Source: a virus. From it: a stretch of 64,000 nucleotides of DNA. Both the position numbers and the translations under genes were made by a program. The stretch lies in IMG/VR virus record IMGVR_UViG_3300036781_000838, positions 31,135 through 95,134 of that record. One strand, 5' to 3'. Within the stretch, counting starts at the first letter, position 1, and each line of letters starts with the position of its first letter. The notes under the pieces are model-generated. The model was not told where the DNA came from. It was given only the letters and a program-made list of their open reading frames with translations, and did no database searches. This document shows, piece by piece, positions 40,071 through 54,247 of the stretch.

Positions 40071-40397
40071 TTATGCAACCAAAGTCAGGCGTGAGTTATA
40101 ATACTCTTCCTGGGTTAAAAAATGGAACTCTGAACAGTGCCCAACGGCTACGTCCGTTCTGGTATAGGACTCGAATACCTTTATGAAATCCAAAAAGGAG
40201 GTTTCCTGTTCTTCTTTGAAAATGTCTGAATCCCAAAGGCTTGTATTTCCTTTTTTATCGAGGAAATTGGCGTGTATGCTATTGGTATGTACTGAAAATG
40301 TAAAGAGCATATACCCAATAGGTTTTCCCCAAACATCGCCCTCTAATTTTCTATATCCCATCCTTTGCAGGTCGAGTTCTTTATGGTACATTGTCAT
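40071..40397 (-). CDS. Hypothetical early protein (108 aa)
   Basis: 108 residues, mixed alpha/beta, no membrane segments and no known motif. The start overlaps the stop of the GIY-YIG gene (four-base overlap), so the pair is translationally coupled. Not recognised. Confidence 0.65.
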   Translation of the reverse strand: MTMYHKELDLQRMGYRKLEGDVWGKPIGYMLFTFSVHTNSIHANFLDKKGNTSLWDSDIFKEEQETSFLDFIKVFESYTRTDVAVGHCSEFHFLTQEEYYNSRLTLVA

Positions 40398-40843
40398 GAT
40401 TTAAAACAATTTGATTGCATATCACGGGTGTAATATTTGCCGGCGATGTTGCCATTATAGCTTCTTACGGTGAGAACATCGAAGTTTATCATATACTTCA
40501 GTTCCAGGTATCCAAGAAACTTTGGAGAGCAGGAGAGGGCGATGATTTCCCTGGTAAAGTCCTGCTCTCCTTTTTCTTTGACATCTTTTTGTAGATCTGT
40601 GGAGGATGACCAATACGACAACCAGTCCGATTCCTTTCTTACCAGTTGATATGTTTTCTTTCGCTTGTCGGCTGATAACTCATTTTTTCGCAGGGCCTTC
40701 TTTCTACTGGAATAAAAATGCTTTTTGCCAATGTAAATTGAACCAGTCTTCGTATTTGTTATTTTGTAAATAAACCCAAAGAGTGCTTCGGGCTGGGGAA
40801 GATCGTCTAAGGATTCGACCGTCCTAGAGTTGTAGAGCCACAT
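40394..40843 (-). CDS. GIY-YIG family endonuclease (Seg/homing type)
   Basis: 149 residues. GFIYKITNTKTGSIYIGKKHF at residues 23-43 is the GIY-YIG core, with KITN and YIGKK as in T4 Seg-type free-standing endonucleases. E in FLGYLELKYM is the likely metal ligand. Such genes spread by cutting alleles that lack them. It is inserted directly downstream of the ubiquitin-like cassette, with a TTTGTAGAA element before the start. No intron boundaries are visible around it, so it appears to be intergenic. Confidence 0.8.
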   Translation of the reverse strand: MWLYNSRTVESLDDLPQPEALFGFIYKITNTKTGSIYIGKKHFYSSRKKALRKNELSADKRKKTYQLVRKESDWLSYWSSSTDLQKDVKEKGEQDFTREIIALSCSPKFLGYLELKYMINFDVLTVRSYNGNIAGKYYTRDMQSNCFKS

Positions 40844-40859: not shown

Positions 40860-41486
40860 CTACAAAACTACAAACTTTTGTTTTTCGACCGTCAAACAGA
40901 AATCAATTAAGTTATCGACATATTGGCGACGTTCGGTCAATGTCTTGAAACTTGGTAGCTTGATCCGATCTCCCACTAATTTCGAAATGTCATCAGAAAA
41001 TATAATATCCCCTTTATGGTCCTCGATTAGTGTTTCAACAATAACCTGGATTGGTCGAAAGGGTTTTGTTCGTATAATTTTAGAGATATAAAATTTGACG
41101 TCGATGTCAGTCCAATCATCATTATTAGGTATGGTAATGATGAAAAGCGGCGAAATTCCCTTTGTTTGGTCATCAAATAATCCTATAAATCCTTTCCCCA
41201 TTAGGTATACTTCACCGCCGTAATTCAGCTTCATTAAGATATGGGCTGTATTAATTATTTCCATCACCTTGTCTTTGTTAAGAGTCCTTTCCCGAAACTG
41301 AGTTGCTTCAGTGAACATTAAAAATCCTTCTTTATGGTATCCTGAAGGTTCCTTATAAATTAATGCAACTTCCTGAGAGGCAGCAGTGAATAAAAGGGCT
41401 GAAGGTTGTGGTGAACTATAGTTATACTGATTTCTTCTTGCGAAGGGGAATTTCGTTAATTGGTCAGAAAAGCGGTAGTCTATCAT
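40860..41486 (-). CDS. Putative accessory protein of the ubiquitin-like cassette (208 aa)
   Basis: 208 residues. Not recognised. Starts by overlapping the E1-like gene's stop by four bases, so it belongs to that operon. It is predicted alpha/beta with a hydrophobic core strand ALLFTAASQEVALIY and GEVYLMGKGFIGLF, without cysteine-histidine catalytic motifs. It could be an adaptor or substrate-recognition part of the cassette, but only gene order supports this. It ends VVL-TAG, where the stop overlaps an early element. Confidence 0.65.
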   Translation of the reverse strand: MIDYRFSDQLTKFPFARRNQYNYSSPQPSALLFTAASQEVALIYKEPSGYHKEGFLMFTEATQFRERTLNKDKVMEIINTAHILMKLNYGGEVYLMGKGFIGLFDDQTKGISPLFIITIPNNDDWTDIDVKFYISKIIRTKPFRPIQVIVETLIEDHKGDIIFSDDISKLVGDRIKLPSFKTLTERRQYVDNLIDFCLTVEKQKFVVL

Positions 41487-42184
41487 AGCATAAGGTTGAG
41501 TGGGGCAATATATTCCCAGAAGTGTGGTACCGCCCGCATTGGAGTATCAGAATTTGCATTTGTAATCCAATTTGTCAGAAATCCAACCATGTGCCCGGCT
41601 ATCATCGCTGCGCAATGGGTAGTTTGCGAGAAGGTACATGGTTGTGGAGGTACTTCATCACCATTAAAGAGATGAGTGGATTCATATTCTTCAATAAATG
41701 CATAATCGTCCCCTGGTATGTTGAATATCTGTAGTAATTCTGCATTTAGGCGACCGTCCTGGAAGAAACAATATTTCCTTTGACTTTCAGGTATAAGCAT
41801 GAGAAATTCGCGCCATTTTCTGAAAGCTAATTTTCTTGCTTCCATATTGTCAAACCCGCATATCATTATATTGCTAACGGAACTATCCTCCTTATACATT
41901 CCGTCGGATTCTACTGTAGCATCCGGCGAGAACTCTTTGATGATTTCAGTCACAGCATCTGTTTTCCTTTTGTTAATATCCTTGGCTCTCACAAGCTGAC
42001 CACTCATATTGTGTTGCTCAAAACGGTCGTGGTCAAATAAATATAGGTTACAACCTATCCTGCTGATAAGTAGGGAAGTCCATGAACCGATTCCTCCTTG
42101 ACCAAGGACCATAATGTCCTTTTTATGAAGAAGGGAGAACCATTCACCTCCTTTTACTCTTCCATACTGTGCTGCTACTTCCAT
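41483..42184 (-). CDS. E1-like ThiF-family adenylyltransferase
   Basis: 233 residues. Nucleotide-binding loop GQGGIGS at 28-34, then FDHDRFEQHNMSGQ at 50-63, which is the E1/MoeB/ThiF Mg-ATP motif DxDxxExxN. The usual Arg before the Gln is Gly62. A C-terminal CTFSQTTHCAAMIAG block holds two cysteines, either of which could be the thiol acceptor. The enzyme would adenylate the C-terminus of the Ub-like protein encoded upstream and pass it on as a thioester. It starts two bases after the JAMM gene. Domain order agrees with minimal bacterial E1-like enzymes of mobile-element Ub-like operons (for example PRTRC). Confidence 0.85.
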   Translation of the reverse strand: MEVAAQYGRVKGGEWFSLLHKKDIMVLGQGGIGSWTSLLISRIGCNLYLFDHDRFEQHNMSGQLVRAKDINKRKTDAVTEIIKEFSPDATVESDGMYKEDSSVSNIMICGFDNMEARKLAFRKWREFLMLIPESQRKYCFFQDGRLNAELLQIFNIPGDDYAFIEEYESTHLFNGDEVPPQPCTFSQTTHCAAMIAGHMVGFLTNWITNANSDTPMRAVPHFWEYIAPLNLML

Positions 42185-42186
42185 TG

Positions 42187-43359
42187 TTATTGTATTTCAA
42201 GATTAAAAATGTCTAATAATTCTGTCGTTAATTCTGGGTAGATATGCGAAAACCCTTTATCAAGCGCCAATGTTACCTCGGTAATTACATCGATCAAGGA
42301 TTCGAGTTTATTATCTTCAGGAAAGATGCTAATATAAAATTCGGAGACACGTACAGCTATCTCTTCAATATGTACATAAAATCCATTATTCTTAAATTGC
42401 TTTTCGGACAACACCTTCATTGTAGCACTCAAGCTTCCTTCGTACAAATGGTCGAGATTCAGCAATTTTACAAGGAATGAATATGTCGATCTACTCAGCG
42501 CGGGTTCTTTTAGGGGTATATTTTTCTGTTTATTTGTGAACGGTCCCTTTTTTCCCTTTGTACCGGGCAAAGTAAACTCATCCCCATCCCAGCCCGACCA
42601 CATATCACCTTGTTTTTTTGAGGATTTGTTGTTTCCTTGTTTTGAGCCGAATTTACTTCTGGAGATTTGTGATTCAGCGGCTTTATTTTTTATAATTTCA
42701 TCAAACCGTTCAGATAGCAGGCTATCAATGATAGGCGGTTTGCTGATCTCGCAGTGATAAAAATGAACGGATGTTTTTTCTACTGTTTCATGCACAGTAC
42801 GGGACTGTTCATTGCCTGAAGAATCATAATATAAGAGTTTCGACTCAATGGCGGAATGCTCTTTGACCCTAAAAGCTACCTTGGCCATCATCTCGTTGGC
42901 ATTGTTTATGATGAGAGAAAGGTAGTAATTATGAAATTCCGAGTTTTTGATTAACTCCTTATCATCAGTATCTGAAAAGAATACACTCATCGTGTGGTGC
43001 GAATGTATGTGCCCGATTTTCATATCCATTAAAGCTGGATTTGCCATAAGAATATTAACAAATTCAGGAGTGTATTCGTAAGTGGTGAAGACATCATTCC
43101 CAATGTCTTGAAGGAATAAGTATTCCGCCGAAATTAGACACTTGTCATCCCCAAACTCCCCCTCAGTGATACTGTAAAACAAGGTTCCTGACCATTCAAT
43201 GTTATGCACTCTTGAGCATAGGTAAAGAATTTGACTCTGTAACTGGTGACTCAACACTATAGACACCTTCTGTTTTAATGCCTTTAAATGCAAAACTGGC
43301 CTTGGTGAGTTCTCTGGAGAGGCGGGAGCAGATATATCGGGTGATCGAAGGGTTTGCAT
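42187..43359 (-). CDS. JAMM/MPN-domain isopeptidase-like protein
   Basis: Up to 390 residues. It has a complete JAMM metalloprotease motif: E55 in VHNIEWSG and H119-S-H121-x7-S129-x2-D132 in IHSHHTMSVFFSDTD. It should therefore be an active Zn-dependent deubiquitinase-like enzyme. The annotated start overlaps the upstream gene by 158 bases. The domain itself needs only residues from about V32, so a GTG start near 43266 (overlap about 65 bases) is possible. The C-terminal 180 residues are lysine-rich, then helical, and unassigned. Expected partners are the Ub-like, E2-like and E1-like products of the same operon; expected roles are maturation of the Ub-like precursor and removal from targets. 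Confidence 0.85.
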   Translation of the reverse strand: MQTLRSPDISAPASPENSPRPVLHLKALKQKVSIVLSHQLQSQILYLCSRVHNIEWSGTLFYSITEGEFGDDKCLISAEYLFLQDIGNDVFTTYEYTPEFVNILMANPALMDMKIGHIHSHHTMSVFFSDTDDKELIKNSEFHNYYLSLIINNANEMMAKVAFRVKEHSAIESKLLYYDSSGNEQSRTVHETVEKTSVHFYHCEISKPPIIDSLLSERFDEIIKNKAAESQISRSKFGSKQGNNKSSKKQGDMWSGWDGDEFTLPGTKGKKGPFTNKQKNIPLKEPALSRSTYSFLVKLLNLDHLYEGSLSATMKVLSEKQFKNNGFYVHIEEIAVRVSEFYISIFPEDNKLESLIDVITEVTLALDKGFSHIYPELTTELLDIFNLEIQ

Positions 43360-44350
43360 AATATAAGTTTTTATCCTCTATTTCTGGAGGGTTGATAATT
43401 GACAATTTCTTTTTTTCTCCTTTGAAGGTTATCAAGACTTCAGGAGTATATGTAATCGAAGTTTCTGAGGTGATGTTCGTATATTTACCGTCACTGGTTT
43501 TATATGCAAACAAATGGGTCAAAGGCACATTTCTTAATGGGCCATTGGCACTACTCGCCATTCCTTTTAATCGTTTTAAGTATTTGGCCAGCTCCTTTTC
43601 AAAATTATCCGTTGGATCTACATCGATCCTTTTAGATACAACTATTCGTAAATGGGATCTTATGTCATCAATGCTATGGGTATTCAGGAAATGTGTATAT
43701 ATGTAAGACAATTGAGGAAGATATTGGTCATCTAGGGCAACTACTATAGTGTCAGTTCCTATGTTGCTAATATATTCATAAGGTGTGCCTTCAATGGATT
43801 CATACGCCAAATAGCTTTGTATTTGGTAACAAAACATTTCGAAGTTAATCTCATCATATTCCTCTCTTAATGCATTGGTTACATCGTTAATGGGACCCGT
43901 ACCGGTACAGAAGTTGCTGAATTTCGTGCATCGATCATTCAGATGCGAATGAGTATATTCGGAAACCCATTCGTTTTTGCTAAAAGTTGTCCTCATACCT
44001 TGTAAGTCGCCATGCAGTCTAAGGGTTGTTGTTAAATGAAAGGATACATATATGTCTTTAATAACATGAGAGTTTCCTTGTGCATTTGCTATTATCAGCT
44101 CCGGGAAATATAGGATGACTTTATACCGTATTAACTTTTTGACAACACTTGCAAAGTATGCTGAGAATTCCTCCCTATAAGGGGAACCTTGTTGAAGCTG
44201 GCTTACTAGGTTTTCCCGAATGATCTGATTGTTTGCTTCTCCGAATACCCTGTTAAGCGTAAGCTTTATCTTGGTTAAAGATTCCTTATTCCTTTCATCA
44301 ACCAGTTTTACCGTTTCCTCAACCAGGAGGATATTTCTATCTTGGGGCAT
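43202..44350 (-). CDS. Putative E2-like (UBC-fold) protein
   Basis: 382 residues. An N-terminal helix is followed by strands (VILYFPELIIAN, IKDIYVSFHLT), then EYTHSHLN at 131-138 and NFCTGTGPI at 147-154. This is the order of a UBC fold: meander, then an HxH-type flap, then the catalytic-cysteine loop, so C148 is the proposed catalytic cysteine. The rest is mixed alpha/beta. It is encoded between the Ub-like and JAMM genes. The E2 assignment is a structural reading plus synteny and is tentative; it could also be an unrelated partner of the cassette. Its 3' end overlaps the JAMM gene. Confidence 0.6.
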   Translation of the reverse strand: MPQDRNILLVEETVKLVDERNKESLTKIKLTLNRVFGEANNQIIRENLVSQLQQGSPYREEFSAYFASVVKKLIRYKVILYFPELIIANAQGNSHVIKDIYVSFHLTTTLRLHGDLQGMRTTFSKNEWVSEYTHSHLNDRCTKFSNFCTGTGPINDVTNALREEYDEINFEMFCYQIQSYLAYESIEGTPYEYISNIGTDTIVVALDDQYLPQLSYIYTHFLNTHSIDDIRSHLRIVVSKRIDVDPTDNFEKELAKYLKRLKGMASSANGPLRNVPLTHLFAYKTSDGKYTNITSETSITYTPEVLITFKGEKKKLSIINPPEIEDKNLYYANPSITRYICSRLSRELTKASFAFKGIKTEGVYSVESPVTESNSLPMLKSA

Positions 44351-44367
44351 GTCATATGTGTTAGATT

Positions 44368-44395
44368 AAAAGGAGGTATATTTCAACCTCCTTTT
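44368..44395 (-). terminator. Hairpin terminator or attenuator after Ub-like gene
   Basis: Inverted repeat AAAAGGAGG / CCTCCTTTT with a 10-base loop, 9 bases after the Ub-like stop and 18 bases before the E2-like start. It may make the Ub-like protein more abundant than the downstream enzymes. Confidence 0.65.
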
Positions 44396-44404
44396 ACCTT
44401 TGAA

Positions 44405-44965
44405 CTAAGAATTCAGACTATTTGCAATCCTGGCAGCTTCATCCACAAGGAAGGTCTGTTCCGGATCATTGTGTCCAGCCTCGTTATTTTCGCTATTTTC
44501 CTCCATATTATCAAGGAGGTTTAATACTGCGTTGGCCTGGTGTTGTGTTTGCTCGCTCCCTTTGATGATTAGATTCAAGCGAACTCGCATTTCTTCTTTA
44601 CTGTTGTCGAATTGGAATTCTTCTACATCATCTTCTTCGTAGTTGAAATTTTCGGCTGTTCCTTGTTCATCACCATTGCCATCATCCCCGTTGTCGTCAT
44701 CCGTATCAGGCCAATTGCCACTATCGACTTTGACGGGATATAAGAACAGGTAAAAATCTTCAACGGGTAAAACAGCAAGTGAGCTGTCGAGGGTTACTTT
44801 GGACCCTCCGACAATCATTCTCATGTTTTTTACGCTAATGCCTTGTGAAGACATTTCCGATACAAGGTCTCCTTTGATAGCGGCTGCTGATTCCAGCACT
44901 CTTTTGTTTTTACCTACGTTGTTGACAACTGTAATTCTTCTTGTCTGAATTGCTACTGTATCCAT
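44405..44965 (-). CDS. Ubiquitin-like (beta-grasp) protein with acidic C-terminal extension
   Basis: 186 residues. Residues 8-83 read as a beta-grasp fold: hairpin RRITVVNNVGKNKRVLES, helix IKGDLVSEMSSQGI, strand NMRMIVGGSKVTLDS, final strand DFYLFLYPVKVDSG. A glycine (G83) ends the last strand. After it come about 100 acidic residues (Asp/Glu/Asn-rich) and a short helix, so the protein looks like a precursor rather than a mature GG-terminated modifier. It is the first gene of the Ub-like/E2-like/JAMM/E1-like unit and has its own hairpin downstream. The start follows a TAAAAATCA leader. Confidence 0.65.
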   Translation of the reverse strand: MDTVAIQTRRITVVNNVGKNKRVLESAAAIKGDLVSEMSSQGISVKNMRMIVGGSKVTLDSSLAVLPVEDFYLFLYPVKVDSGNWPDTDDDNGDDGNGDEQGTAENFNYEEDDVEEFQFDNSKEEMRVRLNLIIKGSEQTQHQANAVLNLLDNMEENSENNEAGHNDPEQTFLVDEAARIANSLNS

Positions 44966-44997: not shown

Positions 44998-45429
44998 CTA
45001 TGCGAAAATGTCAATTTCTTCCTCCACGCTGGCTACAGGAGCTGCTGCGGGAGCTACAGTCGGTACAGGTCCAGGTGTAGCTGTGGGTGCTATTGCACGA
45101 GCTGCCCCGGGAGTAGGTTGCCTGTTTGTCGATACTACCGAGTTAATTTGTGCCTGGAACGCCGGCGCCCCTTGTTGTCCTGGCGTATCATCTTCAATTA
45201 TCAGTGTCGCCGCGGGTGCTTCGACATCATCAATGATCTCGATGGTTTTGAACTGTGTTTTTACGCGCTTTACTTTAGCATGCGAAAAGATGGACTTGAG
45301 GTCAGCTGTACTTAGTGCTAAAACCGTTTCTATGCTCATACCTGGTTCAACTGCGTCCACCTCCCAACGTGTGTAACCTGATTTTAGAAGACCAAGAATT
45401 TCGGAAATCTTTACTTGTTTGATAGGCAT
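44998..45429 (-). CDS. Small protein with Pro/Ala-rich linker and acidic tail
   Basis: 143 residues. The first 70 (VKISEILGLLKSGYTRWEVD, LSTADLKSIFSHAKVKRVKT) form a small domain seen beside Ub-like genes in related phages (recollection only). A Pro/Ala/Thr-rich linker follows, then a short acidic end EEEIDIFA, the kind of peptide that docks on partner proteins. Located one gene upstream of the Ub-like gene; function unknown. Confidence 0.6.
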   Translation of the reverse strand: MPIKQVKISEILGLLKSGYTRWEVDAVEPGMSIETVLALSTADLKSIFSHAKVKRVKTQFKTIEIIDDVEAPAATLIIEDDTPGQQGAPAFQAQINSVVSTNRQPTPGAARAIAPTATPGPVPTVAPAAAPVASVEEEIDIFA

Positions 45430-45471: not shown

Positions 45472-46437
45472 TCATTCATTCAATTTCCTGTCAATTAGGG
45501 GAACCAGCCATTGCTTTGTCTTCTGTGCCCCATATACCTTGATATGATCACTCAAATCTTTTTCCCCGTAGTTAAGGAATACGGGAGTGATGCCATATTT
45601 GTCCTGGTATTTATAAGCAGCCTTTTGACCAGCACTATCATTATCAAATAGGACCAGAACCTTTTGATAGGTATTAATATCCAGCTCTACCACGGATTGA
45701 GGAAGAAACGTATTTTCTGAGTCCGGGGCTTTGCTGTCCAGGTTCAACCTGAGTGAAATCAGGGACATCAAATCTTTAAGGGAGGATGAATAGACCAGGA
45801 ATGGTCTATTCATTGTCTGCTCTGACCCTTGTATATGGTCACCTACCTTAATAAATTTGAGATTGTCAACCTTGGGCTGGTATATCTTAAAGAGTTGACC
45901 ATTCCTTTTGAAATAGCCGTAGATATGGTTGCCGGTAATGGTCATATCCTCCAGGTCACGGGTCATCGTGTAGGACTCCAGTGGCTTTACTATGAATTCC
46001 GTAAGTAGCGTGGATCCGATGTTGTACCCGATCCAGTAGTCCTTATCCAGCAAATTCCATTTCCGGGGCTCATGGCTGGTTACCTTATATTTGCTTTGCT
46101 GTGTATATTCAGGGATGATGATATTCCCCGAACTGTTCTTTCGCCAAATGTTATAATCGTTGACAATTTTTGTGCAAGTACTGTGAAAGTCAAGGCCGTA
46201 TTTAAGTTTAACCAGGGTTAGGCAGTCTCCTTTATTACCACTGGAAAAGTCATTAAACAGGTATTTCCCGTTTTTTAGGAAGAAACCCATGGAGGGTGTT
46301 TTCTCTTCGGTAAAAATTGATTTTATCTTGAACTCAGTCCCATTGAATTGATCCAGTGGAACACCACAATAATTTGAGAATACCCAGGCATCAGGCACAT
46401 CTTTGGCTTCGAATATTAGATTTTTTGCAGATAACAT
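45472..46437 (-). CDS. DnaG-type primase (TOPRIM)
   Basis: 321 residues. The N-terminal part corresponds to the primase core entry domain (FTEEKTPSMGFFLKNGKYLFNDFSSG, in parts EEKTPSMGFF and YLFNDFSSGNKGD) without the zinc cysteines. The TOPRIM core is PFLVYSSSLKDLMSL, then VLVLFDNDSAGQKAA with the metal-binding DND. The first acidic TOPRIM residue is replaced (YSSSLKD), as in other Bacteroidota phage primases I recall. It makes RNA primers for the family A polymerase and is neighboured by SSB-like and helicase genes. A typical crAss-like replication gene. Confidence 0.85.
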   Translation of the reverse strand: MLSAKNLIFEAKDVPDAWVFSNYCGVPLDQFNGTEFKIKSIFTEEKTPSMGFFLKNGKYLFNDFSSGNKGDCLTLVKLKYGLDFHSTCTKIVNDYNIWRKNSSGNIIIPEYTQQSKYKVTSHEPRKWNLLDKDYWIGYNIGSTLLTEFIVKPLESYTMTRDLEDMTITGNHIYGYFKRNGQLFKIYQPKVDNLKFIKVGDHIQGSEQTMNRPFLVYSSSLKDLMSLISLRLNLDSKAPDSENTFLPQSVVELDINTYQKVLVLFDNDSAGQKAAYKYQDKYGITPVFLNYGEKDLSDHIKVYGAQKTKQWLVPLIDRKLNE

Positions 46438-53541: not shown

Positions 53542-53568
53542 ACTACCAGGTTAGATGCGCCTGGTAGT
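53542..53568. terminator. Bidirectional terminator between convergent units
   Basis: Perfect 9-base arms ACTACCAGG / CCTGGTAGT around a 9-base loop, between the fibre-like gene (plus) and the uracil-DNA glycosylase gene (minus). It overlaps the last codons of the latter. No long T run on either side, so termination strength is uncertain. Confidence 0.55.
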
Positions 53569-54247
53569 TCGATCCTAAAATGGTGTTTACCTTCGTGAAC
53601 AGTTCCTGATGGTCCCATGGTTTACCGGTGTGGGCCATATCTGCCGGATGTTCGATAAGCATCTTATAATGGTGGTCCCCAATCAAATCTGAAAACCCAG
53701 CGGCATGGTCACCCAAAAAGATAAATACCAATCCCCGATTTTCGTAATTGATCGTGTCAAGAAGGTAGGTTGTAAATGGTTTCCATATATCTAAATGAGA
53801 ACCAGGGCTACCAATTTGACAAGTAAGGGCCGTATTAAGAAGCAAAATCCCTTGGTTTGACCATCGTTTCAGATCCACCTCTCTTCCATAGGTTTCCGGT
53901 AACTCAGTTTGAAGTGCATTAAATATCCGCCTGAGCGCAGGTTGTTCCTTCCCGGTTAAGCTACAGGAAAACGGTATACCGTCGGCGATCCCCAATTGAG
54001 GGTACGGATCAGTTGCAATAATGACCACTTTGAGTTCATCGTATGGACACTGCTCAAAGGCAGTTAACAGATTTCGAAGAGGAGGGGTGAACCTTTTTCC
54101 GATTTCTACCTGGGCGACCAAGTGGGCTATTATTAAATCGAAATCGCTTGAAAGTAAGAATCCTTTGAGCTTATTACTCCAACCGGAGGGCTTTAGCATG
54201 GCATAGAGTTGGTTTTTTACTTTTTCTATATCAATTACAGGTGTCAT
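53543..54247 (-). CDS. ung: Uracil-DNA glycosylase, family 1-like
   Basis: 234 residues. VVIIATDPYPQLGIADGIPFSC is the water-activating loop: D80 corresponds to the catalytic Asp of QDPYH, but Gln and His are replaced by Thr and Pro (TDPYP). SNQGILLLNTALT and VFIFLGDHAAGF match later family segments. The final minor-groove loop is EHPADMAHTGKPWDH in place of HPSPLS. It removes uracil from DNA, which suggests this phage does not use uracil-containing DNA itself. UDG genes are frequent in crAss-like genomes. Ends in TAG. Confidence 0.85.
   Translation of the reverse strand: MTPVIDIEKVKNQLYAMLKPSGWSNKLKGFLLSSDFDLIIAHLVAQVEIGKRFTPPLRNLLTAFEQCPYDELKVVIIATDPYPQLGIADGIPFSCSLTGKEQPALRRIFNALQTELPETYGREVDLKRWSNQGILLLNTALTCQIGSPGSHLDIWKPFTTYLLDTINYENRGLVFIFLGDHAAGFSDLIGDHHYKMLIEHPADMAHTGKPWDHQELFTKVNTILGSNYQAHLTW

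Follow-up and report, generated by a model that had tools for sequence, protein, structure and literature searches.

Operons of the group termed 6d encode a ubiquitin-like protein (UBL), a JAB protein, an E1, an E2 and a helical protein (Iyer, Burroughs and Aravind, 2006; PMC1779556). Five tightly packed minus-strand genes lie at positions 40860-44965 of a phage DNA stretch of 64,000 nucleotides (the window), which is part of the 95,134-base IMG/VR record IMGVR_UViG_3300036781_000838. In the order of transcription they encode a UBL, an E2-like protein, a JAMM/JAB metalloprotease, an E1/ThiF-like adenylyltransferase and a fifth component, P5. Together they probably form a phage-borne cassette for ubiquitin-like conjugation and deconjugation, a reading based on the homology of the E1 and JAMM proteins, the fold and conserved glycine of UBL, the invariance of the catalytic residues and the fixed co-occurrence of the genes. 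An initial annotation of the window had described five consecutive genes making up a complete cassette. All five open reading frames were confirmed at the coordinates given below, and the cassette is complete as a set of genes, its activity being predicted.

Relation to described systems

We take group 6d to be the same as the PRTRC, or Prok-E2_D, cassettes of plasmids. The phage locus was compared with ten such plasmid cassettes and one genomic locus; the plasmid search was seeded by one Bacillota locus obtained from PF14460 and TIGR03737 searches of Bacillota, Spirochaetota and virus records. The order E2_D-JAB-ThiF is found in nine of the compared cassettes and loci. In five Bacillota plasmids dnaN lies just upstream of the cassette, accompanied in four of them by Rad52, and in a cyanobacterial plasmid a primase/polymerase gene is the neighbour; the plasmid Prok-E2_D cassettes (loci L098-L107) frequently follow closely on dnaN and Rad52 or primase genes. 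The first 50 kb of plasmid pPNAP01 contained no cassette.

The phage cassette resembles the 6d/PRTRC group in having separate UBL, E2-like, JAB and E1 genes, in the E2-JAB-E1 order, and in residing on a mobile replicon, often beside replication or repair genes. The E1 and JAMM profiles of the phages align with their plasmid counterparts (hhalign probability 98 for E1 and 93 for JAMM against JAB). In cyanobacterial cassettes of the 6d type, a candidate beta-grasp protein, recognised by eye, has a glycine motif followed by a tail, as does the phage UBL; UBL gave no profile match to the candidate ubiquitin-like protein of the cyanobacterial plasmid. The differences lie in the E2, which is matched by neither PF14460 nor NCBIfam PRTRC_B in the phage, and in P5, a different fifth protein that follows E1. 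Neither E2 nor P5 of the phage matches a candidate profile of the 6d helical partner. Phage proteins also score below the curated cut-offs of PRTRC_A (6.5e-4; 19.3 against 101.8 bits) and PRTRC_ThiF (0.0025; 17.2 against 144.75 bits). The 6d/PRTRC group is the closest known kind, and the phage cassette is not a formal member of it.

BilABCD has the same four roles of UBL, E2, JAMM and E1; the genes studied here are, however, carried by a phage, and show only a weak similarity to BilD in the ThiF core (4e-6), with no match to BilA or BilB. Type II CBASS Cap2/Cap3 and BubCD have the E1 core and JAB chemistry in common with the phage, whereas the phage has no E1-E2 fusion and its matches are confined to the ThiF core. 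When PADLOC was run on the phage cassette, its matches were partial ones to the ThiF core and a single weak one to JAB, with no sign of Bil or CBASS. The tail assembly proteins I and K of lambda-type phages likewise combine a phage UBL bearing a glycine with a JAB domain (PMC1779556); they are, however, products of tail genes with no E1 or E2 described (PMC1779556), whereas the cassette of the window lies in the replication block. A jumbo-phage survey makes no mention of ThiF, JAB or Ubl. The literature search, which left subscription papers and preprints mostly outside its range, so that an earlier description is possible, found no paper linking Crassvirales or crAss-like phages to a ubiquitin-like system.

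Conservation of the cassette

In tblastn searches E1 and E2 found 74 GenBank phage records apiece, and the breakdown by organism name was identical. The set comprises crAss001 and its Bacteroides relatives, DAC15, DAC17, several crXXX gut phages and the Fpv group of Flavobacterium psychrophilum. TerL of the window has matches in 126 phage records, the majority from Crassvirales and Flavobacterium phages of the Fpv type, which together with the portal and major capsid protein PHROGs upholds the earlier assignment to a crAss-like phage; the closest major capsid protein is that of Leptolyngbya phage Lbo-JY46, and csAssE-Sib gives a weak match. Since TerL is found in 126 records and E1 and E2 in 74 each, other Crassvirales appear to be without the cassette. 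In crAss001 the genes are gp79 (UBL), gp78 (E2-like), gp77 (annotated as a metalloprotease), gp76 (annotated as a thiamine biosynthesis protein) and gp75 (P5).

The same gene order is seen in crAss001, DAC15, the Flavobacterium phages and more than 100 IMG/VR loci. A scan of IMG/VR seeded with JAMM alone gave 391 relatives, of which 80 were kept and 78 analysed as new loci. UBL, E2 and E1 were in place in all 58 of the JAMM-seeded loci with full flanks, in line with the totals of 74 records; the genes thus co-occur in related phages, as had been asked of the initial annotation. Fixed order and full co-occurrence over such divergent phages are not due to chance.

Introns provide a different kind of evidence. 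In two phages a group I intron splits the JAMM gene exactly between the active-site codons IH|SH, and in a third the E2 gene is split at MH|SH (L003, 6157-6369; L026, 5540-5799; L006, 4207-4438). Homing introns tend to settle where important genes are most conserved, and these insertions therefore lend independent support to the JAMM and E2 motifs. In Flavobacterium phage Fpv1 (L048, 5725-8017) the JAMM gene is also interrupted, just before IHSH, by an insert with an opposite-strand open reading frame for a LAGLIDADG homing endonuclease; at this insert no group I intron scored high enough to pass the Rfam gathering cut-off.

The modifier

The first gene (44405-44965, minus strand; PHROG 15560) encodes a 186-residue protein consisting of a beta-grasp domain (residues 1-80), the motif K-V-D-S82-G83, an acidic linker and a helical tail. 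The beta-grasp fold is predicted by AlphaFold2, with a pLDDT above 90 for most of these residues, and the top Foldseek matches of the model are MoaD, ubiquitin and SUMO, with probability 1.00 and E-values only near 1e-3. The annotation of this protein as ubiquitin-like is thereby borne out. Among 36 phages G83 never varies and S82 is nearly invariant. In nearly all homologues the beta-grasp closes with a [K/Q/R]-x-x-[S/A]-G motif, its SG or AG being near-universal, and the tail beyond it is highly variable in length and sequence. Three homologues are nearly tailless and end in SG-E (L122), SG-I (L113) and SG-EVV (L116). Because these short natural forms stop one to three residues past SG, it is likely that UBL is processed to expose a C-terminal glycine, which would be its functional end. 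Such a layout is to be expected if a modifier needs its glycine exposed. A profile match of the UBL tail to SipD was dismissed as noise from the helical tail.

The E2-like protein

The second gene (43202-44350, minus strand; PHROG 15310) encodes a protein of 382 residues with the motif Y132-x-H134-S135-H136 and, after it, Cys148-x-G150. Across 46 divergent homologues C148 and G150 never vary, while Y132, S135 and H136 are nearly invariant. The gene overlaps that of JAMM by 158 nucleotides; the overlap is shared by relatives and is therefore not a sequencing error. In the AlphaFold2 model a meander of three strands leads to the HSH motif, which is followed by the Cys and then by two helices; this predicted arrangement is consistent with an E2. 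The invariant Cys motif resembles those of bacterial E2s.

The HSH...C-x-G motifs of the phage E2 profile and of plasmid E2_D align in register, a weak similarity, given that 4 of 200 column shuffles scored as high; hhalign of the full-length protein against plasmid E2_D gave nothing. The crAss E2 profile also aligns to an HPH...CLG protein encoded beside E1 in Xanthomonas phage PhiXhv-15, with none of 200 shuffles scoring as well. Both motif alignments speak for an E2 role, though neither proves it. The assignment is made from the Cys motif, the gene position, the predicted secondary structure and this weak profile similarity. The E2 identity that we infer is the weak point of the overall reading, as we discuss below.

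A structure search of BFVD with the E2-like model returned viral proteins only, the strong ones from crAss-like phages. One phage locus (L116, 6082-8155) carries two tandem E2-like genes, the second with a degenerate HSH motif and the Cys kept. PhiXhv-15 (L186, 2817-6696) offers another candidate system in a phage: a 141-residue protein ending in -SGG is followed by an 892-residue protein with HPHM...CLG and Cys-rich ends, and then by E1, which matches the phage E1 hidden Markov model at 1.3e-30. DNA topoisomerase and ligase genes are near, and no JAMM was seen nearby.

The protease, the activating enzyme and P5

The JAMM/JAB metalloprotease (42187-43359, minus strand; PHROGs 21448 and 16107) has a long C-terminal region. 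E55, H119, S120, H121, S129 and D132 are all invariant in the alignment, so that the motif read as intact in the initial annotation is so. Prok-JAB is matched by all 34 aligned relatives (best 1.1e-6); the protein of the window matches at 0.0017, below the curated cut-off.

E1 (41483-42184, minus strand; PHROG 15670) matches Pfam ThiF at 4.8e-14, and ThiF-type models score best. Across 21 diverse phages the GxGGI loop, D51, D53, N59, Q63, K74, D112 and C183 are invariant and G33 and S34 nearly so, which agrees with the earlier report of an intact GxGGIGS loop. The GenBank name of this protein implies thiamine biosynthesis; it was rejected, as E1 accompanies the E2-like and JAMM genes and not thi genes. 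Many phage E1s have an N-terminal extension, which in crAss001 gp76 (L046, 14536-14985) comprises about 150 residues and has no Pfam match. A limited pattern-based scan of genome contigs for a cellular reservoir of this E1 yielded only two small contigs of metagenome-assembled genomes, so that no such reservoir came to light.

The last gene (40860-41486, minus strand) overlaps E1 by 4 nucleotides. Its product, P5, had been listed as an unassigned partner. It has no assigned fold, no Pfam match and no profile match to any 6d protein; it is nevertheless a conserved, fast-evolving fifth component located just after E1. The post-E1 families of different clades, including Steigviridae, are related by profile (hhalign probability 94-96), and a joint hidden Markov model built from them finds P5 in 69 loci. 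P5 is likeliest to be a target adaptor or an E3-like factor.

Proposed pathway and alternatives

In the pathway that we propose, JAMM would trim the variable tail of UBL and expose its -Ser-Gly end. E1 would adenylate this end and pass it, putatively via C183, to Cys148 of the E2-like protein, which would attach UBL to target proteins, possibly with P5 as a specificity factor. JAMM could also detach UBL from its targets. Our first choice of targets would be proteins that the phage itself encodes for replication, recombination or repair, a suggestion to which we give somewhat less than an even chance. It is prompted by the phage cassette adjoining a primase gene, by its other constant neighbours (helicase, uracil-DNA glycosylase and exonuclease) and by many related plasmid cassettes adjoining dnaN, Rad52 or primase; the early region of a phage, however, holds such genes in any case. 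More speculatively, the cassette might represent a distinct phage-borne lineage that regulates the phage's own replication or repair machinery, a replicon-encoded analogue of PCNA ubiquitylation and SUMOylation that parallels the plasmid cassettes next to sliding-clamp and Rad52 genes.

Several observations weigh against a conjugation cassette. The cassette is known here from genes and predictions. The E2-like role claimed for the 382-residue protein is favoured by its Cys motif and position, while the UBC fold that the claim called for did not appear when the model was compared with the PDB by Foldseek; no E2 family of Pfam or NCBIfam was matched among 36 and 46 homologues, and PF14460 was unmatched in 26 virus records. 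In nearly all phage E1s glycine precedes the conserved glutamine, at what we take to be the position of Arg73 of MoeB. That arginine is a catalytic residue in MoeB (PMC12355090). Several plasmid cassettes have Asn before the glutamine, and the arginine may therefore be dispensable or replaced in this phage and plasmid branch. Both the targets of the cassette and the function of P5 are read from gene position.

The same machinery could instead be directed at the host, tagging or inactivating defence or metabolic proteins, or JAMM could strip the tags added by Bil-type systems of the host. This is a serious alternative, although of rather low probability. Ubiquitin-like systems of bacteria are known from anti-phage defence (PMC11354881; PMC10097602), and for Borg elements a counter-defence role of JAMM-type desampylases has been suggested (PMC12660748). 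Stripping, however, needs only a lone JAMM, which is always accompanied by UBL, E2 and E1 in the 58 loci with full flanks; PADLOC recognised nothing beyond general E1 and JAB folds, and the cassette sits among replication genes. That location also argues against assembly or decoration of the virion by attachment of UBL to structural proteins, which we regard as very unlikely. Such targets are feasible, given that bacteria add a ubiquitin-like tag that blocks phage packaging or assembly (Hor et al., 2024, as cited in PMC12660748), yet the structural atlas of crAss001 makes no mention of gp75-gp79 in its main text, nor does the isolate paper mention gp76-gp78 in its own.

A pathway for sulfur transfer or small molecules would dispense with conjugation altogether: E1 would adenylate UBL so that it comes to carry a thiocarboxylate, in the manner of ThiS and MoaD, for nucleoside or cofactor modification, JAMM would mature UBL, and the E2-like protein would be another enzyme. 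The preference of E1 for ThiF-type models, the ThiS-JAB-E1 operons described without an E2 (PMC1779556) and the E2 fold left unconfirmed by Foldseek all suit this proposal. It is nonetheless improbable in our estimate, as no locus with full flanks lacks the E2-like gene, whose product has an invariant Cys by its HSH motif. The annotated neighbourhood in crAss001 showed no sulfurtransferase or cysteine desulfurase, in the absence of a search aimed at these. That the five genes are chance neighbours or misread folds with no joint function is hardly credible: divergence is high and some assignments come from profiles only, yet the synteny of these very divergent phages already contradicts it.

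Few viruses of the human gut are as abundant as the crAss-like phages, and for the majority of their genes no function is known. If the five genes do form a conjugation cassette, then five hypothetical or misnamed genes of cultured phages (crAss001 gp75-gp79, DAC15 and Fpv) become a single pathway, a function that database names such as 'thiamine biosynthesis protein' conceal. Ubiquitin-style conjugation would then be used by tailed phages as well as by their hosts, and the little-studied 6d/PRTRC group would gain a genetically testable model, for which laboratory phage-host pairs exist.

Neighbouring genes

The position of the cassette in a replication block, proposed in the initial annotation, is confirmed by its neighbours, of which primase, helicase, uracil-DNA glycosylase and exonuclease are constant. 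The DNA primase gene (45472-46437, minus strand; PHROG 12622, 2.6e-15) lies upstream and is present in most loci with enough flank. Between it and UBL is an accessory gene (44998-45429, minus strand), whose family occurs in 27 loci, mainly of the window's clade and of Fpv-type phages, and is outside the core. No second copy of UBL, E2 or JAMM was found in genome G000. The cassette is directly followed by a gene for a SegE-type GIY-YIG endonuclease (40394-40843; Pfam 1.5e-24). A gene of the uracil-DNA glycosylase superfamily is located at 53543-54247 of the window, and in many relatives a gene of this type adjoins the cassette.

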